Shown here: in pieces, positions 4,799-24,745 of the stretch
Position numbering within the stretch: the stretch's first letter is position 1
How the letters are laid out: each line of letters opens with the position of its first letter
NCBI GenBank assembly: GCA_017305535.1
Contig: JAFKKN010000011.1
Coordinates: 62,001-126,000 of the forward strand
Direction: 5' to 3'
Source: Hyphomicrobiales bacterium
GTDB taxonomy: Bacteria; Pseudomonadota; Alphaproteobacteria; Rhizobiales; Xanthobacteraceae
DNA length: 64,000 nucleotides
Position numbers and translations under genes: made by a program
Notes under the pieces: model-generated
What the model saw: only the letters and a program-made list of their open reading frames with translations
The model's database searches: none
Told to the model about the DNA's origin: nothing

Positions 4799-4815
4799 TG
4801 TTGGTTTCGAGGACA
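4799..4815 (+). promoter_or_regulatory. Putative EBP enhancer site upstream of the binding-protein gene
   Basis: TGTTGGTTTCGAGGACA fits the motif TGT-N8-A-N-N-ACA found near the other sigma-54 promoters here. It lies about 75-90 bp upstream of the -24 element at 4888. A weaker, overlapping-phase copy, TGTCCTCCGCGAGATCA, is at 4819-4835. Its binding by the regulator encoded at 6199-7851 is inferred. Confidence 0.55.
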
Positions 4816-4887
4816 AAGTGTCCTCCGCGAGATCAACCAGACGTCGAATGGAGACTGAATCGACCCGAAATCGGTCGCAAACGGCGT

Positions 4888-4903
4888 TGGCATTCAAGTT
4901 GCT
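4888..4903 (+). promoter_or_regulatory. Sigma-54 promoter for the solute-binding protein gene
   Basis: TGGCATT-CAAG-TTGCT matches the -24/-12 consensus with exact GG-N10-GC spacing. The predicted transcript start is near 4913, 24 bp before the start codon at 4937. This excludes an upstream in-frame start at 4904 because it would lie before the transcript. Confidence 0.8.
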
Positions 4904-4936
4904 ATGCAGCCTCCAGTGCAAATGAGGGAGGCACGC

Positions 4937-6154
4937 ATGCCAAGACATCTCACCGCCGTACTCGCCATCGCAGCCCTGCTCGGTTCGGCTGCCACTGTTC
5001 ACGCCCAAGTATCCGACGATGTTGTCAAGATTGGCGTCCTCGACGACATGTCAGGGCCTTATGCCGACATCCAGGGGCCAGGGGACGTTGTCGCGACCAA
5101 GATGGCCGTTGAAGATTTTGGCGGGAAGGTCAACGGCAAGCCCATCGAGGTCGTTTCTGCTGACGTCCAGTTGAAGGCCGATGTCGGCGGCGCCATCGCG
5201 CGTCGCTGGTACGATACCGAGAAGGTGGATGCGATCTTTGGTCTCGGAACATCGGCCGTCGCTCTCGCCGTCCAGGCCATCGCGCAAGAGAAGAACAAGG
5301 TTTCGATCGCGACGTCGGTAGGATCGACGGCGTTGACGGGGAAGTCCTGTTCTCCCAACGGAATTCATTGGGTGTACGACACCTACGCCCTCGCCAAAGG
5401 GACCGCGACCGCGATGATGAAGCAGGGCGGCGCGGATAGCTGGTTCTTCGTGACGGCGGACTACGCTTTCGGTCATTCGCTGGAGCAGGACACCGCGAAT
5501 ATTGTCAAACGAAACGGCGGCAAGGTCTTCGGCAGCGTCCGGGCTCCGGTCAACAGCGCTGACTTCTCGTCCTTCATGCTACAGGCCCAATCGTCGAAAG
5601 CTCAAGTCATCGGGCTTGCCGTCGCGGGTGCCGATACCATCAACTCGATCAAGACGGCCGCCGATTTCGGTTTGATCGCCGGTGGTCAGAAGATGGCTGG
5701 GCTGCTGGTCCTGATCACCGACATTCATGCCCTCGGCTTGAAAACGGCGCAGGGCTTGATGTTCACCGAAGCCTATTACTGGGACCAGAACGATGAAACC
5801 CGCGCCTTTGCCAAGCGGTTCGCTGAACGCCATGGCGGAAAGCCGCCGACGATGTTCCAGGCCGGGATCTATAGCGCCGTCACGCATTACCTGAAGGCCA
5901 TCAAGGCAGCCGGCTCCGATGAAGCCAAAACTGTCATCGCGGAGATGAAGAAGATTCCGGTCAACGACTTCATGACCAAGAACGGCAGCATCCGGGACGA
6001 CGGACGAATGATGCGGGACATGTACCTGCTTCAGGCCAAGAAGCCTTCGGAATCGAAGGGAGAATGGGATCTGATGAAGGTGGTCGCGACCATTCCTGCC
6101 GAGGATGCGTTCCGGCCGCTCTCTGAAAGCGAGTGCCCGCTGATCAAGAAGTAG
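4937..6154 (+). CDS. ABC transporter periplasmic substrate-binding protein, LivJ/Peripla_BP_6 type (orphan 1)
   Basis: The 405-residue protein starts with a Sec signal peptide (hydrophobic core LTAVLAIAALLGSAATVHA, cleavage after AHA/AQ near residue 24) followed by VVKIGVLDDMSGPYADIQG, the N-terminal strand of family-1 binding proteins for branched-chain amino acids, amides and aromatic acids. GGGAGG precedes the chosen ATG. It stands alone, with no permease or ATPase beside it, and is convergent with the sigma-54 activator gene. Its own sigma-54 promoter and enhancer site put it under the same control as the catabolic operon at 8070. It probably delivers the pathway substrate to a LivHMGF-type permease, possibly the one at 34-37 kb. 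Confidence 0.85.
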   Translation: MPRHLTAVLAIAALLGSAATVHAQVSDDVVKIGVLDDMSGPYADIQGPGDVVATKMAVEDFGGKVNGKPIEVVSADVQLKADVGGAIARRWYDTEKVDAIFGLGTSAVALAVQAIAQEKNKVSIATSVGSTALTGKSCSPNGIHWVYDTYALAKGTATAMMKQGGADSWFFVTADYAFGHSLEQDTANIVKRNGGKVFGSVRAPVNSADFSSFMLQAQSSKAQVIGLAVAGADTINSIKTAADFGLIAGGQKMAGLLVLITDIHALGLKTAQGLMFTEAYYWDQNDETRAFAKRFAERHGGKPPTMFQAGIYSAVTHYLKAIKAAGSDEAKTVIAEMKKIPVNDFMTKNGSIRDDGRMMRDMYLLQAKKPSESKGEWDLMKVVATIPAEDAFRPLSESECPLIKK

Positions 6155-6161
6155 AGGCGGG

Positions 6162-6200
6162 GATCGCGGCGGAAGATCGAGGGGGTCTTCCGCCGCGATC
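6162..6200. terminator. Bidirectional hairpin between convergent genes
   Basis: A perfect 15-bp stem (6162-6176 with 6186-6200) with a 9-nt loop sits between the binding-protein stop and the stop of the activator gene. The right arm overlaps the activator stop codon. It probably terminates both transcripts. Confidence 0.65.
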
Positions 6201-7851
6201 AAGTTTGTTCGGCGCTCTCGATCGCGGCCAGTTTCTTGTAGAGGAACGAGCGCGAGATGCCGAGGCTTGCGGCGGCCTTCTTCTTGTTGCCGCCGCAGGC
6301 TGCGATGGCTTCCTTGATCTGTTCGTTCTGAACGTCGGAGATGACTTTCTTTAAGCCGCGCGAACTGCTTGCCGGAGCTTCATTGACCGGCGGCCCGAGT
6401 GGTTTCTGAATCCGTCTCGGCGTTTCCGACAGATCCTGAACGCCAATCATTATCCCGTCTGAAAATACGAATGCGCGTTCGATCTCGTGTTGCAGTTGCC
6501 GGATGTTGCCGGGCCATGCGCGCTCGGTGAGCTCAGTTAACGCGTCGCTGCTGATCCGAGGCGTCGGTCGGGCGTGCCGGTAGGCAATTTCCTGAAGAAA
6601 TTTGTCGACCAGCAGCGGGATATCGTCAATCCGTTCGCGGAGCGGAGGAACCTCGATGACGATCGGCGAGAGGCGATAGAACAGATCGAGACGAAAGCCA
6701 CCGCTCTCCACCATCAACTGCAAATCCTTGTTGGTGGCGGACACCAGACGAAAATCGACCGGCCGGGAACGATCGCCGCCGATCCGCTCGATGATCTTGT
6801 CCTGCACCACGCGCAACAGCTTGGCCTGAACGTCGAGCGGCATGTCGCCGATCTCGTCGAGGAAGATCGTGCCGCCTTCGGCCTGTTCGAACTTGCCCTT
6901 CCGCCCTTTCTTGTCGGCGCCGGTGAAGGCGCCGGGCTCATAGCCGAACAGTTCCGATTCCACGAGGTTGGGTGGGAGCGCTGCCGCGTTGACATTGATC
7001 ATCGGCCGATCGCGGCGCGGGCTGAGTTGATGTAGCGCGTGCGCGACCAGTTCCTTGCCCGTGCCGCTCTCGCCACGGATCAAAACCGGGATCTCGAGCG
7101 GAGCAACCTTGACGATCTGCGCGCGGAGCCGCTGGACGGCGGGGCTTTGTCCGATGATCTGTTCGAGCCCGTAGTCGCGCGCGCGAAGCGTGGCTGTCTC
7201 GCGCTTGTAGAACTCCAGTTCGCCTTCAAGCGCCTTGATGCGTTGGCTTAGCGATTCGAGCTGTTGCGGCCCCTTGAACATCACGCGCCCGATGGCTCCG
7301 AGCACATGCCCGTTACGCTTGATCGGCACCCGGGAGACAACACGTTCGGCGCCCTGCATTCGCTGAATCGCACCGACCTCGGCTTTCCCGGTCGCGACAA
7401 CTTCGTGAAGACGGGTGTTCTCGATGACTTGTTCGACCGGCCGGCCGTTTCCCTCGCCTAGTTTGAGGCCGAAGAACGCCTCGTGGATCGGCGAGATGTA
7501 GACGAGACGCGCTTCGTCATCCACGATCGTCATGGCGTCGAAGGGGTCCGTCAGCAGATACTGGATGATGTCCCATGCGAAGCTGACGCTTCCGATGAAA
7601 TGTAGCAAGGCGTCCCCGGGTGCGCGGCTGATAACCAGCAGTTCTCCCGATTCCGTCGCCGCCAGCAAAATTGCGTAAGCGTGACGGTCCAGATTGAGTG
7701 TCGTCAGGCGAACTTCCCGAAGTTCGCCCATCCATACCCGGTCGGTGGTCAGCGCCCTGATCCGGGGATCAGAGCCAAGGCCGGTCGAGAAAACGGCCTG
7801 TCCTTCGCTGTTAAGGAAAGCCACTCCGGCAATCTGGATTTCGTTCAGCAT
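6199..7851 (-). CDS. Sigma-54-dependent transcriptional activator (PAS-AAA-Fis), EBP1
   Basis: The 550-residue protein has a PAS-like sensor region (about residues 95-195; IVDDEARLVYISP is typical), a coiled linker, an AAA+ domain with Walker A GESGTGKE (about 260-267), the sigma-54 contact loop GAFTGA (about 307-312) and Walker B FLDEIGD, and a C-terminal Fis helix-turn-helix ending GISRSFLYKKL. It lacks a receiver domain, so it probably senses a ligand directly. A GTG 15 bp upstream could also start translation, but it overlaps an enhancer motif, and the paralogue at 18072-19712 aligns best with the ATG used here. It is divergent from the acyl-CoA ligase operon and convergent with the binding-protein gene, both carrying sigma-54 promoters. 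Confidence 0.93.
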   Translation of the reverse strand: MLNEIQIAGVAFLNSEGQAVFSTGLGSDPRIRALTTDRVWMGELREVRLTTLNLDRHAYAILLAATESGELLVISRAPGDALLHFIGSVSFAWDIIQYLLTDPFDAMTIVDDEARLVYISPIHEAFFGLKLGEGNGRPVEQVIENTRLHEVVATGKAEVGAIQRMQGAERVVSRVPIKRNGHVLGAIGRVMFKGPQQLESLSQRIKALEGELEFYKRETATLRARDYGLEQIIGQSPAVQRLRAQIVKVAPLEIPVLIRGESGTGKELVAHALHQLSPRRDRPMINVNAAALPPNLVESELFGYEPGAFTGADKKGRKGKFEQAEGGTIFLDEIGDMPLDVQAKLLRVVQDKIIERIGGDRSRPVDFRLVSATNKDLQLMVESGGFRLDLFYRLSPIVIEVPPLRERIDDIPLLVDKFLQEIAYRHARPTPRISSDALTELTERAWPGNIRQLQHEIERAFVFSDGIMIGVQDLSETPRRIQKPLGPPVNEAPASSSRGLKKVISDVQNEQIKEAIAACGGNKKKAAASLGISRSFLYKKLAAIESAEQT

Positions 7852-7859: not shown

Positions 7860-7876
7860 TGTCCACGTTGAGGACA
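7860..7876 (+). promoter_or_regulatory. Putative EBP enhancer site at the EBP1 start
   Basis: TGTCCACGTTGAGGACA is a near-perfect palindrome (TGTCC-N7-GGACA) and fits TGT-N8-A-N-N-ACA. It lies nine bp upstream of the EBP1 ATG, so occupation could also repress EBP1 transcription. Its centre is 33 bp from the next site. Confidence 0.6.
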
Positions 7877-7892: not shown

Positions 7893-7909
7893 TGTTGGAT
7901 GCAAGGACA
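7893..7909 (+). promoter_or_regulatory. Putative second EBP enhancer site in the divergent region
   Basis: TGTTGGATGCAAGGACA fits the same motif, centred 33 bp (about three helical turns) from the site at 7860 and about 95 bp upstream of the -24 element at 8004. The pairing and distance are usual for sigma-54 enhancer sites. Confidence 0.6.
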
Positions 7910-8003: not shown

Positions 8004-8019
8004 TGGCACGCAAGTTGCG
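8004..8019 (+). promoter_or_regulatory. Sigma-54 promoter for the acyl-CoA ligase operon
   Basis: TGGCACG-CAAG-TTGCG matches the -24/-12 consensus essentially perfectly. The predicted transcript start is near 8029, about 40 bp before the first ATG of the operon at 8070. Confidence 0.88.
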
Positions 8020-8069: not shown

Positions 8070-9683
8070 ATGCGACCATTCCTCACGCTTCACTCTCCAG
8101 CAGATGCGCGGCGTTATTATCAACAGGGACTGTGGAAGGACGAAACCCTCTACGGCCTCCTGAGTAAACATGCCGATGAGCGTCCCGGCGATATCGCGCT
8201 TCAGGATGGGCGTCGCTCCGTGACATGGTCCGACTTGCGCGGATGGGTGAACGGCGTTGCCGGCAACCTGCGCGAGTTCGGCCTGACCGGAGGAGATCGG
8301 GTTTCGATCTGGATGTCCAATCGCGTCGAAGCGATCGTGATGTTCCTGGCTTGCGCGCGCGAAGGCATTGCCTGCAATCCTTCGCTTCACAAGACCTTTA
8401 CCTGTGCCGAGATCGTCGAACTGTTGTCGTCACTGTCGGCTCGCGCGCTGCTGACCGAGGCAGGTTGGGGCGCGGATCGCTCCCGCGTCGATCTCGATGC
8501 GATGCTGGTGAAGCTGCCGCATCTGAAGATGGTGTATACGCCGGAAACCTTGCCCGGCCCCGCCATCAACGCCGCGCCGCCATGTAGCGATCCGGATAAG
8601 ATTGTGTATCTGGCGTTCACGTCAGGGACCACCGGTTCGCCCAAGTGCGTCATGCATTCGGATAACACGCTGCTTGCGAACGCCCGCGATCTGGTTGCCG
8701 ACTGGCGGCACGGGCCGGAAACCGTGCTGCTGTCGCTATCGCCGCTGTCGCATCACATTGCCTGGGTCGGGATCGCGCAATGGCTGGTCATCGGGGGACG
8801 CTTTGTCACCGATGATCCGCCGCCGAATATGAGCCGCATCGACTGGATTCAGGCGACGGGAGCAACCTACGTTCTCGGCGTTCCGACGCATGCGATGGAC
8901 GTTCTTGCCGAGCAGCAGAGAACGGGCCAACGGCTTGGCGACGTCTCGGTCTTTTACATGGCCGGATCGCCGATTCCGCCGGTCACCGCCGCTGCTTTTC
9001 TCGAGCAGGGCGTCAAGCCGCAGAACATCTACGGCATGACCGAGAATTCGTCGCATCAATACACCCATCCGGACGACTCCGCCGAAGTTATCGTCCAGAC
9101 CTGCGGGCGTGGCGGACGCGCCTATGAGGTGCGTTTGTTCGACCCGGCGGATTCCGACAAGGAGGTCAAGCCCGGCGAAGTCGGGCAAATCGCCGGCCGT
9201 GGCGCTGCGTTGATGTTGGGCTACTTTGATAATCAGCGCGCGACGGAATCCAGTTTCAACAAGGACGGCTGGTTCCTGTCCGGCGACCTCGGCATCCTGG
9301 ATCAGGCTGGAAATCTGCGCATCGAGGGCCGTCTGAAGGATCTGATCATCCGTGGCGGTCACAATATCTATCCGTCGCATATCGAAGCGGCGGCGGTGCG
9401 TCACAAGGATGTCGGACGCGTTGCCGCATTCCCGGTGCCGGACGATCGTCTCGGCGAACGGGTTTGTATCGCGGTGTCCGGAACGATCGAGCCGGATGAA
9501 CTACTGCGGCATTTGCGGGAGCAGGGAATCTCGAAATACGACATGCCGGAGTACTTCGCTCGCGTGGATGACTTTCCACTCACGGCGAGTGGGAAAATTC
9601 TCAAGCGCGAGTTGACGTTGTGGGTGCGCCGCGGAGAGCTGCTGCCGTCGCCCATTCGCGGGCCAGTCGCGGCTGCGACTTAG
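8070..9683 (+). CDS. AMP-forming acyl-CoA ligase, cyclohexanecarboxylate-CoA ligase-like
   Basis: The 537-residue cytosolic ligase activates a carboxylic acid to its CoA ester with ATP. The AMP-binding P-loop-like motif FTSGTTGSPKCVMHS, the YGMTENSS motif, the hinge GRLKDLIIRGGHNIYP and the terminal catalytic Lys in TASGKILKREL are all visible. It is the first gene of an operon of CoA-transferase, dehydrogenase and hydratase genes and follows a strong sigma-54 promoter. The overall pattern resembles ligases for alicyclic acids (AliA-like) in Rhodopseudomonas-type bacteria, and a BadI-like gene in the same operon supports that. The true substrate is not determinable. Confidence 0.85.
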   Translation: MRPFLTLHSPADARRYYQQGLWKDETLYGLLSKHADERPGDIALQDGRRSVTWSDLRGWVNGVAGNLREFGLTGGDRVSIWMSNRVEAIVMFLACAREGIACNPSLHKTFTCAEIVELLSSLSARALLTEAGWGADRSRVDLDAMLVKLPHLKMVYTPETLPGPAINAAPPCSDPDKIVYLAFTSGTTGSPKCVMHSDNTLLANARDLVADWRHGPETVLLSLSPLSHHIAWVGIAQWLVIGGRFVTDDPPPNMSRIDWIQATGATYVLGVPTHAMDVLAEQQRTGQRLGDVSVFYMAGSPIPPVTAAAFLEQGVKPQNIYGMTENSSHQYTHPDDSAEVIVQTCGRGGRAYEVRLFDPADSDKEVKPGEVGQIAGRGAALMLGYFDNQRATESSFNKDGWFLSGDLGILDQAGNLRIEGRLKDLIIRGGHNIYPSHIEAAAVRHKDVGRVAAFPVPDDRLGERVCIAVSGTIEPDELLRHLREQGISKYDMPEYFARVDDFPLTASGKILKRELTLWVRRGELLPSPIRGPVAAAT

Positions 9684-9694
9684 TGGCGACGCAA

Positions 9695-10822
9695 ATGACA
9701 CGGCTGCCTTTAACAGACACCCTCGTTCTGGATTTCAGCACTCTGCTGCCGGGGCCGTTCGCCACACTGATGCTGGCGGAGGCCGGCGCCACGGTAATCA
9801 AGATCGAGCGCGCCGGAAGCGGCGACGAAATGCGTGGCTACGAACCCAAGCTCGGCGCCGACAGTACGAATTTCCAGCTTCTGAACGTCGGCAAGGACAG
9901 CATCGTTGTCGATCTGAAGGCAAAAGATGCGTTCGAGCGATTGAAGCCGTTGGTGGCGCGGGCCGATGTCGTCGTCGAACAGTTTCGCCCGGGCGTCATG
10001 GACCGTCTGGGATTCGGATATGAAGCCTTGCGTGCGATCAATCCGAAGTTGATCTATTGCGCGATTACCGGATGGGGCCAGAGCGGCCCCAAATCGACCG
10101 TTGCCGCGCACGATCTCAACTACATGGCGGATGCCGGCCTGTTAGGCCTCAGTCGCGGCAGCGACGGCGCACCGGTGGTGCCGCCAGTGCTGGTCGCGGA
10201 TTTGGCAGGCGGCGCGTATCCTGCCGTGGTCAATATTCTTCTCGCCCTTCTTCATCGCGATCGCACCGGCGAAGGTGCTTATCTCGATATTGCGATGGGA
10301 GAGAATCTACTGCCGCTGGCCTATTGGGGGCTCGGAAACGGATTCGTCGCCGGGCAATGGCCGCGTGGCGGGGATGCGTTGGTGACCGGCGGGAGTCCCC
10401 GTTATCAGATCTATCGCACGTCGGACGGCCGCTATCTCGCCGCAGCGCCGATCGAGGATCGCTTCTGGCAGAACTTCTGCGAGTTGATCGATCTGGCTCC
10501 TGGGTTGCGCGATCCGAAAGCCGATCCAGGCGAGGCGACACGCGCGATCGCGGTCATCATCGCGGGGCGTTCCGCGGATGCTTGGATGGAAACATTCAAG
10601 GGGCACGATGTCTGTTGCTCCATCGTTGCCAGTTTGCAGGAAGCGGTCGCTGATCCGCATTTCGCCGCGCGGGGCGTGTTCTCGCGCAAGATCGATGTCG
10701 AAGGCGCGTCGATGCCTGCGCTGCCGACAGCGATCGCCGCTTGCTTCCGTAGCCAGACCGCTCCGGCCGCGCCGCGACTTGGCGCGCAAACGGCTGCTTG
10801 GCTGAACGAGGAGGCTCGCTGA
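9695..10822 (+). CDS. CaiB/BaiF-family protein, alpha-methylacyl-CoA racemase-like
   Basis: This 375-residue type III CoA-transferase-fold protein keeps the features of the racemase branch: LPGPFATLMLAEAGATVIKIE at the N-terminus, AHDLNYMADAG (the catalytic His position) and VADLAGGAY (the catalytic Asp position). Racemases of this branch invert the alpha carbon of 2-methylacyl-CoA esters so that stereospecific dehydrogenases can act. The ATG at 9695 is chosen over a GTG overlapping the ligase stop; both are possible. It overlaps the next start by one base. A CoA-transferase role cannot be excluded from sequence alone. Confidence 0.75.
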   Translation: MTRLPLTDTLVLDFSTLLPGPFATLMLAEAGATVIKIERAGSGDEMRGYEPKLGADSTNFQLLNVGKDSIVVDLKAKDAFERLKPLVARADVVVEQFRPGVMDRLGFGYEALRAINPKLIYCAITGWGQSGPKSTVAAHDLNYMADAGLLGLSRGSDGAPVVPPVLVADLAGGAYPAVVNILLALLHRDRTGEGAYLDIAMGENLLPLAYWGLGNGFVAGQWPRGGDALVTGGSPRYQIYRTSDGRYLAAAPIEDRFWQNFCELIDLAPGLRDPKADPGEATRAIAVIIAGRSADAWMETFKGHDVCCSIVASLQEAVADPHFAARGVFSRKIDVEGASMPALPTAIAACFRSQTAPAAPRLGAQTAAWLNEEAR

Positions 10823-11820
10823 TGCGCGCGTATCACGTCGTCGAGTTTGGCCCGCCGTCCGCTTTACGGTTGAACGAGGTCGACGATCTCGTGCCGGGCG
10901 AAGGCCAGATCGTCGTCGATGTCGCGGCAGCCGGCATCAATTTTCCCGATACGCTGGTGGTGTCCGGACGCTACCAGATTCTGCCGCCGCGCCCGTTCGT
11001 GCCCGGCAAGGAATTGGCGGGTACGGTGCGTGCGATTGGCGCGGGCGTGACTGCATTTGCGCCGGGCGACCGGGTGCTGGGCCAGCTCGAACACGGCGCG
11101 TTTGCCGAGCAGGCAGTGGTGAACGCCGCAGACGCGTTTCATTTGCCCGACGGACTGGGATTTGCCGATGCGACCGCGCTCGGTCTGGTCTACCAGACGG
11201 CCTATTTCGCGTTGCTTGACCGCGCGGGGCTGCGTCCCGGCAAAACCGTGCTTGTCGGTGGTGCGGCCGGCGGCGTCGGAATCGCATCGATGCAGTTGGC
11301 GAAGGCGTTTGGCGCGCGCGTGTTGGCCGCTGTTCGCAAGCCCGACCAGGTCGAATTCGTTCGCGCGAATGGTGCCGATGCGGTGATCGACGTTGGCGGT
11401 GCCAATCTGCGTGACGATCTGCGTGCGCAGGTGCTCGCCGCGACAGACGGCCGTGGAGTCGATGTGATCATCGATCCGGTCGGCGGCGAGTTCTTCAACG
11501 CGGCGTTGCGCGGGCTGGCGTGGTGCGGGCGATTGGTCGTCGTCGGCTTTGCCGGTGGCGACATTCCCTCGGTCAAGGCCAACTACCTGCTGGTGAAGAA
11601 CATCAGCGTCAGCGGTCTCCAGTGGAGTGACTATCGCGAGCGGCTGCCGGAGCGGATGGCCGAGGCGCAGGCGGACATCTTCCGTCTTTGGCGCAACGGC
11701 GCGGTGCGTCCTCCGGTGACACAGACGTTCGCTTTGGAAGAACTCCCTGCGGCGCTCGAACTCATCGAGAAGGGGCGTATCCGGGGCAAGGCCGCAATCA
11801 TTGTCGGGGATGCCTCATAG
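10822..11820 (+). CDS. Zinc-free MDR-family NADPH:quinone/enoyl reductase
   Basis: The 332-residue protein has the GroES-like N-domain and a Rossmann domain with the nucleotide motif GAAGGVGIASMQLAKAFGARV. It lacks the Cys/His zinc ligands of alcohol dehydrogenases, which places it with quinone oxidoreductases and enoyl/acryloyl-CoA reductases (MDR superfamily). It sits inside the CoA-ester operon (1-bp overlap with the gene before, directly abutting the next), so reduction of an alpha,beta-unsaturated CoA intermediate is a reasonable guess. Confidence 0.8.
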   Translation: MRAYHVVEFGPPSALRLNEVDDLVPGEGQIVVDVAAAGINFPDTLVVSGRYQILPPRPFVPGKELAGTVRAIGAGVTAFAPGDRVLGQLEHGAFAEQAVVNAADAFHLPDGLGFADATALGLVYQTAYFALLDRAGLRPGKTVLVGGAAGGVGIASMQLAKAFGARVLAAVRKPDQVEFVRANGADAVIDVGGANLRDDLRAQVLAATDGRGVDVIIDPVGGEFFNAALRGLAWCGRLVVVGFAGGDIPSVKANYLLVKNISVSGLQWSDYRERLPERMAEAQADIFRLWRNGAVRPPVTQTFALEELPAALELIEKGRIRGKAAIIVGDAS

Positions 11821-13107
11821 ATGGCTTCGCAATCCAAAACGCTTTCTTTGGATACCGCGCAGTCGACGCTGCCGTGCGATGCGTTGCCGTTGAAGACGCC
11901 CGGTGCCGGGTTTCAACTGCTGGCCGGTGTTCGTGTGGTCGATCTCACCACGTCGGTTGCGGGCCCGTCCGGCACCATGCTGCTGGCCGACATGGGCGCC
12001 GAGGTCGTGAAGATCGAACGCCCGTCGGGCGGCGACGATGCGCGCTCGTGGGGGCCGCCGTTCCTCGCCGGTGAATCGCTGTGGTTCGCGGCGGTGAACC
12101 GCAGCAAGAAAAGCGTCGCGCTGGATTTCACCGACGCGGCCGGGCTGAAGCTGCTTTACGATCTGGTCCGGCAGGCCGACATGGTCTTCGTCAATCTGCC
12201 GCCGCGAATCGCGCGCAAGCTGAAGGTGGATGCGGATACCTTACGGAAGGTACGCCCGGATCTCATCTACGTGTCGATCACTGGTTTCGGTCTGACCGGC
12301 GAGCGCGCCGATTGGACCTGTTACGACTTGATAGCCGAAGGCTACTCCGGGATCATGGACGTGACCGGTGCGGCTGGCGGCGATCCGCAGAAAATTGGCG
12401 CGCCTGCCGCAGACATGCTTGCCGGACAGGATGCCGCGTTTGCCGCCGTCGCCGCGCTATATGATCGCCGCACGACGGGCAAGGGTCACGTGATCGACGT
12501 TGCGCTGGTCGATTCTATGACGCGGCTCCTGTCGTGCCGTCTGATGTCCTATCTCGGCTCGGGTGAACTGCCGACACGTTCCGGCGGCACCGACAGCGTG
12601 ATCGCGATCTATCAGGCGTTCGAGACCGCCGACGATCCGATCGTGCTGGCGCTCGGCAACGATAATCTCTGGCAGCGTTTCTGGGCAGCGGTCGGCGATC
12701 CGGATTACGCGCGAATTTCCGGGATGCAAAGCAACGCGGAGCGTCGCCAGCGCCGATCCGAAATCGTCGATCGGATCGCGGAGTTGTTGCGCGCCAAGTC
12801 GCGAAACCATTGGCTTGATGTGCTGCGCGCGGCTCGAATTCCAGTGGGACCCATCAACAATCTCGAACAGGTTGTTGCTGATGACGCGATGTTGGCGCGG
12901 GGAATGTTCTACCGGCTTTCATCCTCGGATGGGCGCATCGTACCGCAGGTCGGACCCGGCATCGTCGTCGATGGCGAGCATGGATTGGCGCGGAGCGCGC
13001 CGCCCAGACTCGGTGAGCATACCGACGAGGTACTTGCCGGTTGGCTCGGGCTGAGCCATCGCGACCGCCACGACCTCATTGATCCAAATTCACATGAAAG
13101 GACATGA
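11821..13107 (+). CDS. CaiB/BaiF type III CoA-transferase
   Basis: The 428-residue protein has the family N-terminus (VVDLTTSVAGPSGTMLLADMGAEVVKIE) and, at the position of the formyl-CoA transferase nucleophile, an Asp in APAADMLAGQ. The racemase His in GHDxNY is absent (CYDLIAEGYSG here), so a true CoA-transferase is more likely than a racemase. Such enzymes move CoA between a donor ester and an acid substrate without ATP. The ATG directly follows the preceding TAG. A second activation route besides the ligase at 8070 would spare ATP by using a pathway product as CoA donor. Confidence 0.8.
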   Translation: MASQSKTLSLDTAQSTLPCDALPLKTPGAGFQLLAGVRVVDLTTSVAGPSGTMLLADMGAEVVKIERPSGGDDARSWGPPFLAGESLWFAAVNRSKKSVALDFTDAAGLKLLYDLVRQADMVFVNLPPRIARKLKVDADTLRKVRPDLIYVSITGFGLTGERADWTCYDLIAEGYSGIMDVTGAAGGDPQKIGAPAADMLAGQDAAFAAVAALYDRRTTGKGHVIDVALVDSMTRLLSCRLMSYLGSGELPTRSGGTDSVIAIYQAFETADDPIVLALGNDNLWQRFWAAVGDPDYARISGMQSNAERRQRRSEIVDRIAELLRAKSRNHWLDVLRAARIPVGPINNLEQVVADDAMLARGMFYRLSSSDGRIVPQVGPGIVVDGEHGLARSAPPRLGEHTDEVLAGWLGLSHRDRHDLIDPNSHERT

Positions 13108-13108
13108 C

Positions 13109-13888: not shown

Positions 13889-13892
13889 CGCC

Positions 13893-15360: not shown

Positions 15361-16526
15361 TGAAGATATTTGAGGCACTGGAACACGAGCGGAGCTGGAG
15401 CGAAGAGGAGCGGCTTCTGCTCGATCAGGTCGATCGGCTGACGGCCGAGATTATCGCGCCCAATGCCGCCAGGATCGACGAGGCTGGTGCGTTTCCATGG
15501 GATAATGTCGAAGCCATCAATCGCCTCGGCCTCAACGCGATCTTCGTTCCGGAGGCCTATGGCGGTGCGCCGATGTCGTTCCGGCTGTATCTGGCCGTCG
15601 TTCGCCGCATTGCTGAGGCCTGCGCGTCCACCGGCATCATTTATGCGACCAACTTCCATGCGATGAAACCGTTGATCGAATTCGGTTCGGAGGAGCAGAA
15701 GACGCGGCTTCTGCCGCGCATCGCCGAAGGTGGATTGGCGGCGTTGGCGATTACTGAGGAAAGCGCGGGTTCGGATGCGACGGGGATGAAAACCCGGTTT
15801 CAGCCGGACGGCGACGAGATCGTGATCGATGGCGCGAAAATCTTCATCACCAACGGCGATGTCGCCGATCGCATTCTGCTTTTTGGCAAGCACGCCGGGA
15901 TCGACGATCCGCGTCAAGCGATTTCCGTGCTCGTCGTCGAGAAAGGCGCGCCCGGGCTCGAGACGCTCGGCCTGGAGAAAAAGATGGGACATCGCGGGTC
16001 GTCGACGGCGGCGCTGCGGTTCGACGGTTGCCGCGTCCCTGCCGCAAATCTGATCGGACGTCCGGGCGACGGCCTTGCCATTCTGCTTGCGTCGCTCAAT
16101 CGGTCGCGCCCGAGCATCGCCGCCCACGCCATCGGAATTGCGACGGCCGCGTTCAAGGACATGACGGCGTACATGAACGAGCGCAAGCAATCCGGTCGCC
16201 GCATCATCGATTTTCAGGCCAACCAGTTCATGTTGGCGGACCTCGCCACCGATCTCGCGATGGCCGAACTCTGGCTCGACCATCTCGCCGGCCGGATCGA
16301 CGCCGGCGCGCAGGACTTTGGCATTGAGGCGTCGATGGCCAAGATGCGCGCGTCCGACATCGCCAACCGCATCGTCACCGAGGCGGTGCAGATGCATGGC
16401 GGCTACGGCTATTGCAGCGATTTCCGGGTGGAGCGGCTGATGCGCGATGCCAAAATCACCCAGATCTGGGAAGGGACGAACCAGGTCCATCGTCAACTCA
16501 TCGGACGGAGCTTCGCGACCAAATGA
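15360..16526 (+). CDS. Acyl-CoA dehydrogenase
   Basis: The 388-residue flavoprotein has the FAD/substrate motifs LAITEESAGSDATGMKT and FITNG, and near the C-terminus MHGGYGY and IWEGTNQVHR with the usual catalytic Glu. It should introduce the alpha,beta double bond into an acyl-CoA (AliB-like in the alicyclic pathway). The start overlaps the preceding stop by one base (TGATG) and the stop overlaps the next start (ATGA). Confidence 0.9.
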   Translation: MKIFEALEHERSWSEEERLLLDQVDRLTAEIIAPNAARIDEAGAFPWDNVEAINRLGLNAIFVPEAYGGAPMSFRLYLAVVRRIAEACASTGIIYATNFHAMKPLIEFGSEEQKTRLLPRIAEGGLAALAITEESAGSDATGMKTRFQPDGDEIVIDGAKIFITNGDVADRILLFGKHAGIDDPRQAISVLVVEKGAPGLETLGLEKKMGHRGSSTAALRFDGCRVPAANLIGRPGDGLAILLASLNRSRPSIAAHAIGIATAAFKDMTAYMNERKQSGRRIIDFQANQFMLADLATDLAMAELWLDHLAGRIDAGAQDFGIEASMAKMRASDIANRIVTEAVQMHGGYGYCSDFRVERLMRDAKITQIWEGTNQVHRQLIGRSFATK

Positions 16527-17404
16527 CAAGAGCAATCAGAACTGTCGGCGTCTGCGGCGCGGGGGGCACCATGGGGGCGGGCATCGCGCTGGTCGCGGCG
16601 CGCGCCGGGTTCAAGACCATCTCCTTCGATATGTCGGAAGGTGCGCTCGACAAAGCCGCCAAGCAATCCGTTGATTTTCTCGACAAGTCGGTCACGCGCG
16701 GCAAACTGAACGGCGACAAGCGCGACGCGATCGTCGCCGCGATGTCGCGCACCACCAGCATCGATGGGCTTCGGGATTGTGATCTGGTGATCGAGGCCGT
16801 GTTCGAGGATCTGTCGATCAAACGCGATCTGCTGGGCCGTCTCGATGGCGCGTGCGCCGAGGATGCAATCTTCGCGTCGAATACCTCGACGCTGTCGATT
16901 ACTGAAATCGCGTCGGGCTCAAAGCACCCGGAGCGCGTGGTCGGCATGCACTTCTGCCTGCCGGCGCAACTGATGAAACTGATCGAGATGTCACCTGGAA
17001 TCCTGACCTCGGAAGAGACATTCAGGACGGCATGGCAATGGACCGAGGCTTGCGGTCAGATGCCGGTGAAGACACAGGACAAGCCGGGCTTCATTCTCAA
17101 CGCCCTGCTCGTGCCGTTCAACAACGATGCTATCCGCGCGGTTGAAGCGGGTGTCGCCGAGCCCGCCGATATCGATCGCGCCATCAAGGCCGGCCTTGGT
17201 TACAAGATGGGGCCGTTGGAGCTGCTCGACCTGATTGGCCTCGATACCCAGATACGTCTATGTGAAGCGTTCTATCCGATCACACTCGATCCGCGTGCGG
17301 CGACGCCGCCGCTGCTGCGGCGAATGGTGGCCGCCGGCCTGCTGGGGCGTAAATCCGGGCGAGGCTTCTTCGACTACCAAGGCAATGCGATGTTCGGAGC
17401 CTAA
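16523..17404 (+). CDS. 3-hydroxyacyl-CoA dehydrogenase (N-half of a split PaaH-like enzyme)
   Basis: The 293-residue protein has a Rossmann domain with GVCGAGGTMGAG, FASNTSTLSITEIA, PERVVGMHFCLPA and a complete first C-terminal 3HCDH domain (DKPGFILNALLVPFNNDAIRAV). The length matches single-unit FadB2/Hbd enzymes. It oxidises 3-hydroxyacyl-CoA with NAD+. The start ATG overlaps the preceding stop, and only 5 bp separate it from the next gene, which encodes what looks like the second half of long PaaH-type proteins. Confidence 0.9.
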   Translation: MTRAIRTVGVCGAGGTMGAGIALVAARAGFKTISFDMSEGALDKAAKQSVDFLDKSVTRGKLNGDKRDAIVAAMSRTTSIDGLRDCDLVIEAVFEDLSIKRDLLGRLDGACAEDAIFASNTSTLSITEIASGSKHPERVVGMHFCLPAQLMKLIEMSPGILTSEETFRTAWQWTEACGQMPVKTQDKPGFILNALLVPFNNDAIRAVEAGVAEPADIDRAIKAGLGYKMGPLELLDLIGLDTQIRLCEAFYPITLDPRAATPPLLRRMVAAGLLGRKSGRGFFDYQGNAMFGA

Positions 17405-17409
17405 GCATC

Positions 17410-18060
17410 ATGAAATATGCGTTCGAGAAAGCCGGAGAGAGCCGTTCATTTCCCGCTGGAGACGATTTCCTGAACGGCGCGGTCGGTCCCGATCAAGCTG
17501 ATGTCGTCATCTATAGCGGGGCACGGTTCACGCCGGACCCGCGCAAGACGGCGATCCTGATCGAACTCGGCATGGACTGCCTCGGGGATCATATCAATGA
17601 GGATGAGCCTAGCCACGCGAACGTGCTGGGCTTCGCACGCTATCGCAACGGTGACGATTCTCCCTCGCGGCTGATCGAACTGGTTCGGCATCCGAAGGCA
17701 GGCGAAGCCGCGATCGCGGCGGCGCGCGATCTTTTTGCTGCGGCGGGACTGGAGGTTTCGCTGTGCAACGATCAGGCCGGGCGCATCATCAGTCGGCTGG
17801 TCGTTCCCAAGTACAATGCGGCGCTGCGCTTCCTCGACGAAGGATTGGCGACGCAAACCGATATGGACCTGACATGTAAGTTGGGCCTTGGCTATCCGGA
17901 TGGCCCGATCGAACGGGTCGTTCGCGGTGGTTTGGCATCCTACTATCAGGTCAGCAAGGACCTGTTCGATGCATTCGGCGCGCCCGCTTTCGCGCCGCCG
18001 CGGCGCGCACGGATCGCATTCAAGCAGGCCATGGCCAAGACGGATACGCCGAAGGGCTGA
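17410..18060 (+). CDS. 3HCDH C-terminal domain protein with reduced Rossmann region (C-half of a split PaaH-like enzyme)
   Basis: The 216-residue protein has no GxGxxG cofactor motif. Residues about 125-200 (GRIISRLVVPKYNAALRF, then TQTDMDLTCKLGLGYPDGPI) are a 3HCDH C-terminal domain; the first 110 residues resemble the shortened Rossmann-like insert (3HCDH_RFF type) found between the two C-domains of PaaH. Alone it cannot bind NAD normally, so it probably complexes with the preceding dehydrogenase. The two genes are in different frames, so this is not a single in-frame stop. It ends the sigma-54 operon. Confidence 0.75.
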   Translation: MKYAFEKAGESRSFPAGDDFLNGAVGPDQADVVIYSGARFTPDPRKTAILIELGMDCLGDHINEDEPSHANVLGFARYRNGDDSPSRLIELVRHPKAGEAAIAAARDLFAAAGLEVSLCNDQAGRIISRLVVPKYNAALRFLDEGLATQTDMDLTCKLGLGYPDGPIERVVRGGLASYYQVSKDLFDAFGAPAFAPPRRARIAFKQAMAKTDTPKG

Positions 18061-18071: not shown

Positions 18072-19712
18072 TCAGCCATGGTTCATTTCGGAAAGCCTTT
18101 TATAAAGGTACGATCGTGAGATCCCAAGGCTTTCGGCTGCACGTTTCTTGTTGCCGTTGAACCGGGTCAATGCATCCCGGATACCCCGACTCTCGACTTC
18201 GTCGAGAGTCGGCAAGGCTGCATCGGAAGATTCCGCAGCGGCAGCCTGCGTCGCGTTGGGTTTGTCTTCCCGTGCGGTCATTGCCGTCTCCGTCAGGTCC
18301 CGCGCGGTGATCGTGGTGCCGTTGCAGAAAACGAACGCACGCTCGATTTCGTGTTGAAGCTGGCGGATATTGCCCGGCCATGGCCGTTCCATCAGGATCG
18401 ACAGGGCTTCGTTCTCGATTCGAGGCACGGGCCTCGCGTGGCGATAGGCAATATTTTCGAGGAATTTGGAAGCAAGAAGGGGAATGTCCTCGAGCCGCTC
18501 ACGTAGTGCAGGCAATTGAATGACGATAGGCGATATCCTGTAGAACAGATCGAGCCGAAATTTCCCTTCCTCGACGAGGGACTGAAGATCGCGATTGGTG
18601 GCGGAGACCAGTCGGAAGTTCAGTTGACGTGCCTTGTCGCCGCCGACGCGCTCGACGATGCGATCTTGCAGCACACGCAGCAGCTTGGCCTGCACCTCAA
18701 GGGGCATATCTCCGATCTCGTCGAGAAAGATCGTGCCGTCGTCGGCCTGTTCGAACTTTCCCTTGCGGCCGCGTTTGTCGGCGCCGGTGAAGGCTCCCGG
18801 CTCGTAGCCGAACAATTCTGTCTCGACGAGTGTCGGAGGCATCGCTGCGGCGTTGACGGCCACCATCGGGCCATCCCGCCGCGGGCTCAAGCGATGGAGG
18901 GCGTGGGCGACCAGCTCCTTGCCGGTCCCGCTTTCCCCACGAATGAGCACCGGAATTTCAAGCGGCGCGACTTTGATGATCTCGGCGCGAAGCCGCTGGA
19001 CGGCGGGGCTTTCGCCGATGATGCTGTCGAGGCCGTACTTCTGGGATTTGAGGCTCTCGGTCTCTCGCTTGTAGAACGCGACCTGTCCTTCAAGGGCGCG
19101 AATTCGTGCATTGAGAATGGCGAGTTGCTCGGGTCCCTTGAACATCGCGCGGCCGTAAGCGCCGAGTATCTTGCCGTTACGCCGGATCGGAATGCGGGAC
19201 ACGATACGATCCGAGTCGGGCATGGTGCCGACTTCGGCCTTGCCGCTCTTCACTACCTTATGGAGCCGCGTTCCCTCGACAATGTCCTCGATCGGTCTTG
19301 CGCGGGCTTCGCCCGCCTTGAGGCCGAAATACTTTTCGTGGATCGGTGACATGTAGGAAATGCGTGCGGCATCATCGACGATGATCATGCCTTCGAACGG
19401 GTTCGTCAGCAGCTGTTCCAGCATGTCCCAGGCGAAGTCGACGCTGGTGAGGAAATTGATGATCGCCTCTCCGGGTGGATCGCTCACGATGATGACGTCG
19501 CAATCGTTCATCGGAATCACGACGACGACATAGGCATGACGATCGAGCGTGAGCTGGTTGACCCGTCGGAGCCGGGCTTCGCGCATCCAGACAGGGTCGA
19601 GTGCGAGAGCCTTTAATCGCGGATCGTTCGCGATTCCGGAGGCAAAAATGACCCTTGAGGCGCCGTCCGACAGCAATAGCCCGTGAAAGTCCGGAAGCCG
19701 GTGATCGGGCAT
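18072..19712 (-). CDS. Sigma-54-dependent transcriptional activator (PAS-AAA-Fis), EBP2
   Basis: The 546-residue paralogue of EBP1 shares domain order and most of the sequence: PAS-like region (about 95-190), Walker A GESGTGKE (259-266), GAFTGA loop, Walker B FLDEIGD and a Fis helix-turn-helix with [11 protein letters not shown]. The N-terminal 90 residues, probably the ligand sensor, are the least similar part. AAAGGAAC precedes the ATG. It is convergent with the EBP1-flanked operon (11 bp apart) and lies downstream of two CaiB-family genes on the same strand, with its own motif site just upstream. It probably activates the divergent promoters at 22.2-22.4 and 24.5-24.7 kb. Confidence 0.93.
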
Positions 19713-19738: not shown

Positions 19739-19755
19739 TGTATCTGCTGAAGACA
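19739..19755 (+). promoter_or_regulatory. Putative EBP site upstream of EBP2
   Basis: TGTATCTGCTGAAGACA fits TGT-N8-A-N-N-ACA and lies 27 bp upstream of the EBP2 start codon. No sigma-54 promoter is seen on the minus strand next to it, so it may serve autoregulation. It is the only motif copy in the 139-bp gap between EBP2 and the racemase gene. Confidence 0.45.
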
Positions 19756-19851
19756 GTTAAGCACGAGACATTCGGTTTGCTCAAGCAGGCGAGCCACTCG
19801 GTGTATGCAGGGGAGACAACACATATTGCGTGCTCCCGTCGGTCCCCGGCG

Positions 19852-22286: not shown

Positions 22287-22303
22287 TGTCCACGCGGAAA
22301 ACA
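22287..22303 (+). promoter_or_regulatory. Putative EBP enhancer site, distal copy
   Basis: TGTCCACGCGGAAAACA fits TGT-N8-A-N-N-ACA. It sits between two divergent sigma-54 promoters and its centre is 31 bp from the next copy. Confidence 0.5.
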
Positions 22304-22317
22304 TCTGGCTGCGAAAC

Positions 22318-22334
22318 TGTTGCGGGTAACGACA
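22318..22334 (+). promoter_or_regulatory. Putative EBP enhancer site, proximal copy
   Basis: TGTTGCGGGTAACGACA fits the motif and starts 68 bp upstream of the -24 element at 22386. With the distal copy it could serve both divergent promoters. Confidence 0.55.
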
Positions 22335-22385: not shown

Positions 22386-22401
22386 TGGCACGAGCCTTGC
22401 G
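22386..22401 (+). promoter_or_regulatory. Sigma-54 promoter for the second binding-protein gene
   Basis: TGGCACG-AGCC-TTGCG is a near-perfect -24/-12 element. The predicted transcript start is near 22411, 33 bp before the TTG start at 22444. Confidence 0.88.
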
Positions 22402-22443: not shown

Positions 22444-23637
22444 TTGAGATCATACAACCACTGGATGCTGGGCTTGCTGCTGCTGGCCGGTCTGACCCAG
22501 GCCGATGCTCAAGAGCTGCATGGCGTCACCGCGACCGAAATCAAAATCGGTCAATCCATGCCCTATAGCGGGCCGGGTTCGCACTACTCCACTATCGCGA
22601 GAGCGAACGAAGCCTATTTCCAGATGATCAACGATGCCGGCGGCATCAACGGTCGCAAGATCAAGCTGATCAGCCTTGACGACGCCTACAGTCCTCCCAA
22701 AACCTTCGAGCAGACGCGCAAGCTGGTGGAGCAGGAAGATGTGCTGCTGATCTTCGATACGTTGGGAACAGCGACGAACGCTGCGATTCAAAAATATTTG
22801 AATACCAAAAAAGTACCGCACCTCTTCCCGACAACGGGCGCGACGCGCTTCGCGGATCCCAAAAACTTCCCGTGGACCATGGGATGGCAGCCGAACTACC
22901 AGCTCGAGGGCCATGCTTTCGGCTCCTACATTCTGGAAAATCATCCGAATGCAAAGATCGCCATTCTGTACCAGAACGATGATCTCGGGCGCGATTACAT
23001 CAAAGGCCTGCGCGACCGTCTGGGTGCGAAAGCCGATTCCCTGATCGTCAAGGAACTGAGCTACAGCATCTCCGATCCCACCATCGATTCCCAGGTCGTG
23101 ACGCTGCAATCGACAGGCGCCGATGTCTTCATGAACTTCTCGACGACAAAGTTCGCCGCGCAAGCCATGCGGAAAGCGCACGAACTCGGCTGGAAACCGG
23201 TGCAGATGCTGGCAACCGTATCGGCCTCCGCTGCCGTCTTGAAGACAGTGGGCCCGGAAGCCAGCACCGGCGTTCTGGCTCTGCACTACATGAAGGATCC
23301 CGCCGATCCGCATCTGGCGGACGATCCCGCCTTCAAGGAATGGCTTGCCTGGATGAAAAAGTATTATCCATCGGGTGACGTCACCGACGAATTCAATGTG
23401 CTCGGCTACTCGAATGCCCAGACGCTGGTGCAAGTTCTCAAGCAGTGCGGCAACGATCTGTCACGGGAGAATGTCATGAAGCAGGCTCAGAGTCTGAACA
23501 TGCAGCTTCCTATGGTTCTGGATGGAATCCCGCTCAAGACAAGTGCGACCGAATACGCTCCGATGAAGAACCTGCAAATGGCGCGCTTCAACGGCAACGG
23601 CTGGGACCACGTCGGGCACGTCATATCCGGGGACTAA
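22444..23637 (+). CDS. ABC transporter periplasmic substrate-binding protein, Peripla_BP_6 type (orphan 2)
   Basis: The 397-residue protein has a signal peptide (MLGLLLLAGLTQADA, cleavage near AQE, residue 23) and the family start TEIKIGQSMPYSGPGSHYS. GGGAGG lies seven bases before a TTG start; an ATG seven codons later would shorten the signal peptide. It has no adjacent permease. A strong sigma-54 promoter and two enhancer motifs lie upstream, and a T-tailed terminator downstream, so it is transcribed alone. It differs clearly from the binding proteins at 4937 and 32974, suggesting a different ligand for a shared transporter. Confidence 0.85.
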   Translation: MRSYNHWMLGLLLLAGLTQADAQELHGVTATEIKIGQSMPYSGPGSHYSTIARANEAYFQMINDAGGINGRKIKLISLDDAYSPPKTFEQTRKLVEQEDVLLIFDTLGTATNAAIQKYLNTKKVPHLFPTTGATRFADPKNFPWTMGWQPNYQLEGHAFGSYILENHPNAKIAILYQNDDLGRDYIKGLRDRLGAKADSLIVKELSYSISDPTIDSQVVTLQSTGADVFMNFSTTKFAAQAMRKAHELGWKPVQMLATVSASAAVLKTVGPEASTGVLALHYMKDPADPHLADDPAFKEWLAWMKKYYPSGDVTDEFNVLGYSNAQTLVQVLKQCGNDLSRENVMKQAQSLNMQLPMVLDGIPLKTSATEYAPMKNLQMARFNGNGWDHVGHVISGD

Positions 23638-23669
23638 CGATCGCGCCTTAATTTTGAAGCCGTGGTGCG

Positions 23670-23706
23670 GGAGAGCCAGACATTGCGCTGGCTCTCCTTT
23701 CTTTTC
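23670..23706 (+). terminator. Rho-independent terminator
   Basis: A perfect 10-bp stem, GGAGAGCCAG with CTGGCTCTCC (23670-23679 with 23688-23697), has an 8-nt loop and is followed by TTTCTTTT. It lies 33 bp after the binding-protein stop and 23 bp before the convergent crotonase stop. Confidence 0.88.
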
Positions 23707-23728
23707 GGCTGGTGCGAGCTAAATTCCG

Positions 23729-24523
23729 CTATTTACGATTGGCTGATGCGATGAAGTCCGCATCGCGACGCTCGATCGCGGCGCTCAGCCCTTCCTTGAA
23801 TTCGCAGCTCGACATCGCCAGTGCCTGACCGAGGCCTTCGAAGGCAAACATGTCGTGAAGGCCAGTCTCGAAACTGCGCGCCATCAGCAGCTTGGCAAGT
23901 CCCATGACTTCGGAGGGGCCCTTGGCCAGCCGATGGGCTTCGGCCAGTGCTTGCTCTTTCAATTTGTCGTTGGCGCACACTTTGGTCACCAGTCCCTGTG
24001 CGAATGCTTCCTCGGCGGTCCAGGTCTGGTTGCCGAACAGGAATGCCTTGGCGCGCGCCATGCCGATCAATCGCGGCAGATGATACATGATGCCGATATC
24101 CGGAACGGCGCCGAGGCGGAAGAAAGCCGCCATGAACTTCGCATCTTCCGACGCAAATAAAATGTCCCCGCAGAGCGCGAGGCCCATGCCGCCACCGGCG
24201 GCGTGGCCATTGACGGCAACAACCATCGGTTTTTCGAGCGTAATCAGCGGAATGAGCCAGTCCTTCAAGGCGGAGAAGCGGCGGTGGACGGACCACGGAT
24301 CGGATGCGACCTCAAGCATCTTGAAGTCGCCGCCGGCGCAGAAACTCGGACCGTTGGCGGCGAGCAGGACTGCGCGGACATCGCGATCTTTCGAGGCCTT
24401 CTTGATTGCCTCACCCAGTTCGTCCCGAAGGTCCGAAGTCAGTGAGTTTCGCGTCTTCGGATTGTTGAGCGTGACGATGAGGACCGCGCCGTCGCGTTCA
24501 AGTTCGATCTGTTGGCTTGCCAT
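23729..24523 (-). CDS. Crotonase-family enoyl-CoA isomerase-like protein
   Basis: The 264-residue protein has the crotonase oxyanion motif CAGGDF and HAAGGGMGLALCGD, but both hydratase glutamates are missing (GGGMGLA instead of GGGxELA; FFRLGAVPDIG instead of LPExxLGxxP). The Asp in VPDIG is the catalytic residue in PaaG and enoyl-CoA isomerases, so a double-bond shift is more likely than hydration. The ATG at 24523 follows AAAGGGC; longer readings would start at or before the predicted transcript start. It is divergent from the operon at 24803 and has its own sigma-54 promoter. Confidence 0.82.
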   Translation of the reverse strand: MASQQIELERDGAVLIVTLNNPKTRNSLTSDLRDELGEAIKKASKDRDVRAVLLAANGPSFCAGGDFKMLEVASDPWSVHRRFSALKDWLIPLITLEKPMVVAVNGHAAGGGMGLALCGDILFASEDAKFMAAFFRLGAVPDIGIMYHLPRLIGMARAKAFLFGNQTWTAEEAFAQGLVTKVCANDKLKEQALAEAHRLAKGPSEVMGLAKLLMARSFETGLHDMFAFEGLGQALAMSSCEFKEGLSAAIERRDADFIASANRK

Positions 24524-24560
24524 GTATTTGCCCTTTGCTTTGAAAACCGGAGAGTGAAGG

Positions 24561-24576
24561 AGCAAGCCCCGTGCCG
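24561..24576 (-). promoter_or_regulatory. Sigma-54 promoter for the crotonase gene
   Basis: On the minus strand CGGCACG-GGGC-TTGCT keeps GG-N10-GC. The predicted transcript start is near 24551, 28 bp before the ATG at 24523. Confidence 0.72.
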
Positions 24577-24628
24577 CGCCCATGAAGCAGGCTTCTTTGC
24601 GCGATCACCACGGAAGAGTGTGGCTAGG

Positions 24629-24645
24629 TGTCCGTACTGACGACA
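24629..24645 (+). promoter_or_regulatory. Putative EBP enhancer site between divergent promoters
   Basis: TGTCCGTACTGACGACA fits TGT-N8-A-N-N-ACA. It lies 53 bp from the minus-strand -24 element and 85 bp from the plus-strand one. A weaker copy, TGTCTCACGCGAATACG, is centred 33 bp away at 24662-24678, repeating the spacing seen at 7860/7893. Confidence 0.55.
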
Positions 24646-24729
24646 CCGCAGCGTTGTCGTGTGTCTCACGCGAATACGTTCGGGCCGACACGCGCTGCCA
24701 AAGCCGTGTCGTGGCGCGAATTGAAGTGT

Positions 24730-24745
24730 TGGCATGGCTTTTGCT
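24730..24745 (+). promoter_or_regulatory. Sigma-54 promoter for the long catabolic/transport operon
   Basis: TGGCATG-GCTT-TTGCT matches the -24/-12 consensus with exact spacing. The predicted transcript start is near 24755, 48 bp before the TTG start at 24803. It may drive all genes to 37548, as no internal terminator is seen. Confidence 0.85.

Follow-up and report, generated by a model that had tools for sequence, protein, structure and literature searches.

We analysed a 64-kb stretch of DNA from a Hyphomicrobiales bacterium of the family Xanthobacteraceae (positions 62,001 to 126,000 of contig JAFKKN010000011.1; hereafter the window), in which a 17-bp motif recurs seven times across 20 kb (4799-24745). 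The motif is better described as a palindrome, TGTCYTY-N3-RARGACA, with the core TGT-N11-ACA. Very probably, it serves as operator, or upstream activator sequence, for a family of one-component sigma-54 activators represented by EBP1, which is encoded in the window, and probably also by the second activator encoded there, EBP2. The site positions, their conservation, the spacing rule, the helical phasing and the near-confinement of the sites to one gene cluster in the home genome were computed directly.

The original prediction, made from the letters of the window, had listed copies of TGT-N8-A-N2-ACA at 4799, 7860, 7893, 19739, 22287, 22318 and 24629, six of them in four intergenic regions with sigma-54 promoters and the seventh just upstream of EBP2. 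All seven 17-mers were present exactly as listed. Six share four intergenic regions with promoters of the strict form TGGCAY-N5-TTGC and lie 61-137 bp upstream of these, and the copy at 19739 precedes the EBP2 ATG by 26 bp. The five intergenic regions that hold the seven copies measure 1,220 bp in total. The pattern matched ten times in the 64 kb (nine on the plus and one on the minus strand), and the three remaining matches, at 31222, 53105 and 57166, fall in the other 62.8 kb; the equal density in coding DNA that had been named as a refutation was thus not what we found. The home genome (4.73 Mb, both strands) contains 174 matches, versus 92 for the reversed pattern. At this rate, 0.73 matches were expected in the 20-kb span (7 seen, Poisson p 1e-5) and 0.045 in the 1,220 bp (7 seen, p 7e-14), which agrees with the predicted clustering in about 1 kb of regulatory DNA. 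Both p-values are post hoc, because the motif was derived from these very sites; therefore, independent evidence was sought in relatives.

Relatives of EBP1 with 49-93% identity were found in Bradyrhizobium, Afipia, Methylobacterium, Aquabacter, Roseomonas-type bacteria, roseobacters, two Alcaligenaceae and one Alteromonas. The strict form TGTC-N9-GACA was present upstream of 28 of 38 EBP1-type genes (27 of 36 relatives and the EBP1 of the window, not its EBP2), and the same half-sites at 24 other spacings were found at 0-2 of those 38 genes. The partial gene L083 was left out of the upstream counts. For other genera, with family genomes added and L027, L028, L046, L050 and the partial L044 left out, 51 upstream regions were collected, and 40 remained after 11 that shared a 40-mer were dropped. 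TGT-N11-ACA occurred in 37 of the 40, other spacers (3-21) in 0-14; the strict form occurred in 24, other spacers (0-21) in 0-2. The highest control, N13 (14/40), may partly represent the same sites with a TG/CA flank. The conservation upstream of orthologues that had been proposed as a check was thus borne out. Three regions were misses (L062, L063 and L079); in L062 and L063, a strict site lies 14 bp further in, just past the cut-off of the region taken. A broader set, to which the window and its own genus also contributed (12 of 58 regions dropped for a shared 40-mer, L044 again left out), gave TGT-N11-ACA in 43 of 46 regions and the strict form in 27. If the clustering in the window had arisen by chance and been spotted because the reader looked at regulatory DNA, the chance-like scores of the weaker copies (see below) would be expected, but neither the seven copies where 0.045 were expected nor the independent conservation in other genera would be; we consider this explanation extremely improbable.

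The consensus over 38 distinct relative sites (L050, from the same genus, left out) was TGTCYTY-N3-RARGACA, in which T6/A12 is weak (34 of 76 half-sites). The A at position 12, a fixed letter of the predicted motif, was found in 18 of these 38 sites as read and pairs with T6 in the palindrome, so it is not defining. On the basis of the relatives' sites and a site matrix, the asymmetric form TGT-N8-A-N2-ACA was given up for the palindrome; the recurring TGT/ACA site itself stood. One more TGT-N11-ACA, without A12 and missing from the original list, was found at 19802 upstream of EBP2. The matrix, trained on 26 relative sites with the same genus left out (L050 dropped), ranked the copies at 7860, 24629 and 19739 first, second and third in the window, and the others 7, 11, 14 and 24. 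The scores of 7860 and 24629 were 26.1 and 20.7, and ten Markov sequences peaked at 8.7-16.2; by score alone, therefore, only these two copies exceed chance. Both good half-sites (TGTC and GACA) are present in 7860 and 24629, and one good half-site in each of the other five, which are credible through their position and pairing.

All operators and promoters of the cluster lie on the plus strand, and distances were measured from the operator centre to the first G of the -24 GG. The operator TGTTGGTTTCGAGGACA (4799-4815) is centred 82 bp upstream of the promoter TGGCATTCAAGTTGCT (4888-4903) before SBP1; a possible degenerate second operator, TGTCCTCCGCGAGATCA (4819-4835), is weak (matrix rank 18). 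The main operon is preceded by the promoter TGGCACGCAAGTTGCG (8004-8019) and two operators: the strongest of all, TGTCCACGTTGAGGACA (7860-7876), at 137 bp from the promoter and 8 bp ahead of the ATG of EBP1, and a second one (7893-7909), 33 bp from the first and 104 bp from the promoter. Before SBP2, two operators 31 bp apart (22287-22303 and 22318-22334) are 92 and 61 bp, respectively, from the promoter TGGCACGAGCCTTGCG (22386-22401). The second-best operator by matrix, TGTCCGTACTGACGACA (24629-24645), is 94 bp from the promoter TGGCATGGCTTTTGCT (24730-24745). The operator before EBP2, TGTATCTGCTGAAGACA (19739-19755), has its second TGT-N11-ACA (19802-19818) at 63 bp, or 6 turns. All four promoters match the strict pattern. 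The fifth strict match in the window (57404, accompanied by the motif copy at 57166) was rejected; it lies inside a long minus-strand open reading frame (56204-57688).

The operators and promoters were also linked by spacing in the relatives. The 37 relative loci contained 72 strict sites, and 26 of these lay 50-200 bp ahead of a strict promoter; 24 other spacings gave 0-2 each. Promoter regions of relatives (85) and of the window (5) were also searched, and TGT-N11-ACA stood at 45-200 bp in 45 of these 90, with N13 as the runner-up spacer (18). These counts bear on NifA, which recognises TGT-N10-ACA in a dyad that likewise lies upstream of a -24/-12 promoter (PMC2820453, in part). The sites could be NifA-type upstream activator sequences read one base too long, since the half-sites are identical and the distance class is the same (PMC2820453, in part); however, the spacer is 10 there and 11 here. 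TGT-N10-ACA was found 0 times in the five window regions, in 0 of the 40 other-genera upstream regions (37 for N11) and in 2 of the 90 promoter regions (45 for N11), and EBP1 scored 317 bits, below the NifA cut-off of 529. The NifA reading is scarcely credible and was ruled out by the spacing.

The distances of the strict sites were 52, 60-61, 73, 83-87, 94-96, 104-106, 116 and 136-138 bp, with one at 183 bp, and they were phased at 10.5 bp (Rayleigh R=0.77, p 2e-6, n=22 after de-duplication). Taking one distance per sequence cluster gave a median R of 0.65 and a median p of 7e-4 (n=17). A period of 10 bp fitted less (R 0.43), and loose sites scattered more (R 0.59 for 47 de-duplicated sites and 0.58 for 28 clusters). 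Minus-strand distances in the 90-region analysis are 1 bp shorter than in the phasing analysis for the same sites. Site pairs in other genera were 30-32 bp apart in 14 of 22 cases and 52-53 bp apart in three, the others being at 41, 55, 85, 92 and 94 bp, and their spacing was phased as well (R=0.82 at 10.5 bp, 22 pairs). A pair spacing of about three turns is consistent with two dimers bound to the same side of the helix.

In the home genome, TGT-N11-ACA followed by a good sigma-54 promoter occurred in seven places (gaps 40-131) and the reversed control in none; six of the seven belong to the four promoters of the cluster. The sole match outside the cluster is at G000:C3:313425-313555. The strict combination was found in 21 of 292 family genomes, with 0 for the reversed control and 11 for an N10-spacer control, so that about half of the 21 are background. 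When the family was divided by the presence of an EBP1 homologue at E<=1e-100 (18 genomes, the EBP1 carriers), the strict N9 combination was found in 10 of the 18 carriers (home genome included) versus 11 of the 274 others, and the N10 control in 0 of 18 and 11 of 274, respectively. In four of the 11 non-carriers, a more distant enhancer-binding protein (EBP; 36-47% identity) adjoins the site. In L159 and L160, from two genomes, EBPs of only 36-37% identity adjoin the same operator-promoter arrangement; the DNA code may therefore extend beyond the EBP1 family. As an observation on the bare motif, TGTC-N9-GACA occurs at 77 places in the home genome versus 26 for the reversed form, an excess far above the few sites of this regulon.

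Several observations weigh against the palindrome being the operator of the EBP1 family. The L079 upstream region has no site at all, and the betaproteobacterial L065 and L082 have only a poor site about 230 bp up. The scores of five of the seven copies do not exceed the maxima reached by chance in 64 kb. There is no strict sigma-54 promoter at the EBP2 sites 19739 and 19802. Periods of 10.5 and 11 bp fit the phasing equally well, and the phasing p-values presume independent distances, a presumption weakened by shared ancestry. Eight of the 18 EBP1-carrying family genomes were without the strict combination at the gap searched, and an order-level scan gave background outside the EBP1 carriers (10 of 297 genomes, reversed control 2).

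EBP1 (6199-7851, minus strand) is a sigma-54 activator with a PAS-like N-terminal region, an AAA+ domain with GAFTGA and a Fis-type helix-turn-helix. Protein comparison and a domain search identified EBP2 (18072-19712, minus strand) as its paralogue (60-62% identity). The listed GTG start of EBP1 (7866) overlaps the site at 7860; the alignments of relatives and an in-frame ATG at 7851, which we took as the start, suggest that the site lies upstream of the gene. Both proteins matched PF00158 and HTH_8, and both carry the GAFTGA loop in an alignment of 31 of 37 close relatives (25 for the N-terminal alignment). The letters of their recognition helices are nearly identical (ISRSFLYKKL in one of the pair). 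The N-terminal region of EBP1 matched no Pfam domain at threshold and PAS weakly; its structural model (pLDDT 83) is PAS-like and matched the sensor regions of FixL, CitA, TyrR (N-terminal) and DhaR, with low whole-length TM scores (<=0.44 by query among the matches listed). A Pfam search up to E 10 matched no receiver domain in either activator; EBP1 is therefore likely to be triggered by a ligand and not by phosphorylation.

The palindrome might instead belong to a repressor or activator other than an EBP, working in the same intergenic regions. One site in the EBP1 leader, and sites at EBP2 that lack a strict sigma-54 promoter, would suit such a regulator. However, the sites accompany EBP1 homologues even in distant genera and keep helical phase with sigma-54 promoters, and among 30 proteins scanned between 2106 and 37548, a scan that passed over small open reading frames, only the two EBPs matched regulator families. 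This explanation is therefore improbable, and the EBP1 family is retained as the probable reader of the sites.

The genes of the cluster fall into two modules. Module A comprises SBP1, EBP1 and the gene run at 8070-18060; module B comprises EBP2, two CoA-transferases, SBP2, crotonases and the run at 24803-37548. Module A is also present in the sister species G093, whose EBP1 is 93% identical and whose three operators lie at distances of 82, 103 and 136 bp. The 60 kb read in that species (G093:C3:513000-572999) yielded no module B gene above 60% identity, whether EBP2, SBP2 or another. Genome-wide, G093 had one match of the EBP1/EBP2 type at E<=1e-100, with 4 of 16 candidates scored; the best match to SBP2 (57% identity) lies on a different contig. 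In the gene maps of the relatives and G093, the absence of QOR and ECH2 is uninformative. Since G093 keeps module A and no EBP2 was found there, EBP1 alone likely serves the module A sites. The original prediction had assigned the motif to both activators as a shared enhancer. For EBP1, the conserved partner of the site, this assignment was supported; for EBP2 it is weaker, since the single EBP match and the 60 kb without EBP2 in G093 leave cross-binding as a supposition, and EBP2 probably shares the core motif with EBP1.

Position 13 is G in all three module A sites (4799, 7860 and 7893) and in none of the five module B sites (19739, 19802, 22287, 22318 and 24629), which hints at slightly different tastes of EBP1 and EBP2. 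Taken further, EBP1 would read the module A sites and EBP2 the module B sites, giving two abutting regulons with the same core. The split at position 13 and the failure to find a module B gene beside module A in G093 speak for such a division, but the comparison is post hoc with n=8 (Fisher p about 0.018, by hand), the recognition helices hardly differ, and A or C is frequent at position 13 in the sites of relatives; we regard it as rather unlikely. Between acceptance and rejection, and leaning slightly towards the latter, we place a broader proposal: the whole alphaproteobacterial activator family would obey a fixed DNA grammar, and in this genome the two paralogues would read the same core to serve a pair of adjoining modules for an alicyclic-type acid as yet undescribed. 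In this grammar, two 17-bp palindromes are separated by whole turns (3, in some cases 5 or 6), and each stands about 5-13 whole turns from the -24 element. If it holds, the sequence would suffice to tell the phasing of enhancers.

How the sites work can be outlined, where we infer binding, activation, autorepression, the inducer and cross-binding by EBP2 from sequence. The Fis-type helix-turn-helix of an EBP dimer would read the 17-bp palindrome, and two EBP1 dimers on sites 31-33 bp apart would occupy one face of the DNA. The AAA+ ring could then loop to sigma-54 RNA polymerase at a -24/-12 promoter 61-137 bp downstream; in the general picture, EBP dimers sit on upstream sites and looping is aided by IHF (PMC7175178, in part). 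The promoters predicted to be activated are those of SBP1, the CoA-ligase operon, SBP2 and the crotonase-to-ABC-transporter operon, which would form an acyl-CoA degradation and uptake cluster. The sites directly before EBP1 and EBP2 probably also repress these two genes; autorepression is suggested by how close the first of them lies to the EBP1 ATG (8 bp) and by the site pair ahead of EBP2. The inducer is likely an acid or a CoA intermediate of the pathway.

Among known systems, the NtrC enhancer at glnA also pairs its dimer sites, some 32 bp apart on the same DNA face, and NtrC has a TGCAC-type half-site and a phosphorylated receiver domain. The pair spacing is similar here, but the half-site differs and a receiver domain was unmatched in both EBPs. 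The bad-ali cluster for cyclohexanecarboxylate combines a ligase, an acyl-CoA dehydrogenase, an SDR and a BadI-like crotonase. Similar enzyme types are clustered in the window, but their bit scores missed the AliA-, AliB- and BadI-type cut-offs (TIGR03208, 237/792; TIGR03207, 143/575; TIGR03210, 215/468), and control here would be by sigma-54 EBPs, whereas bad-ali has the MarR repressor BadR with the operator CAAN4TTG (PMC9795900, in part). The best-scoring NCBIfam model for both EBPs was PrdR (NF041552; 379.6 and 391.8 bits), yet these scores are far below its cut-off of 795. In Desulfovibrio vulgaris, EBP motifs include three groups in which TGT and ACA are separated by 9, 11 or 12 bp; the EBP genes often adjoin their promoters, and regulons mostly cover one to four operons (PMC4641369, in part). 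Its TGT-N11-ACA class has the half-site spacing met here in 37 of the 40 other-genera regions; those EBPs are other regulators from other bacteria, and the likeness rests on half-sites and spacing, not on spacer letters or orthology. The same source describes two EBP genes at one promoter with only one bound, which calls for caution with EBP1 and EBP2. As for the predicted undescribed catabolic regulon, a regulon at the level of the cluster stood and no description of it was found in the literature, where the literal motif strings matched no paper (logos and figures being beyond reach); its kind, on the other hand, is known. Enhancers of the TGT-N11-ACA type had been reported for EBPs of Desulfovibrio (PMC4641369, in part), and the present case is a well-supported new regulon of that kind.

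These results assign a DNA code to an activator family that has no name in NCBIfam or Pfam and occurs in Bradyrhizobium, Afipia, Methylobacterium, roseobacters and others. The regulon of EBP1-type activators becomes predictable in those genera, and it marks a set of pathway genes for joint testing. The operator-promoter set is also a natural data set for the helix-face rules of sigma-54 enhancers.

Family searches defined the remaining genes, all on the plus strand. SBP1, a periplasmic binding protein (Peripla_BP_6), spans 4937-6154, with its start inferred from the promoter position (it was scanned as the open reading frame 4904-6154). The module A run (8070-18060), probably a single transcript, encodes a CoA ligase, two family III CoA-transferases, a quinone-oxidoreductase type protein, a BadI/MenB-like crotonase, a crotonase, an SDR, an acyl-CoA dehydrogenase and two 3-hydroxyacyl-CoA dehydrogenase-like proteins. 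SBP2 (22444-23637) is an ABC-type substrate-binding protein. The probable second operon (24803-37548), likewise taken as a single transcript, encodes a crotonase, an SDR, a ChsH2-type OB protein, two acyl-CoA dehydrogenases, an ADP-forming CoA ligase type and a thiolase, and ends in an ABC transporter (a binding protein, two ATPases and two permeases).

Three strict TGTC-N9-GACA matches lie in coding DNA of the window within 1.4 kb (29997, 30131 and 31355). The match at 30131, 38 nt into the thiolase gene, was considered as an internal operator and rejected, because it codes for VGVGESD, and both this peptide and the strict match recur at offsets 38 and 32 in L049 and L079. Among the relatives, two contigs of one Afipia isolate (L051 and L052) carry two EBP1-type copies, each beside a copy of part of the cluster. 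In a Paenalcaligenes contig (L082:9953-14604), the EBP and ligase homologues are split across several frames, perhaps through sequencing errors.

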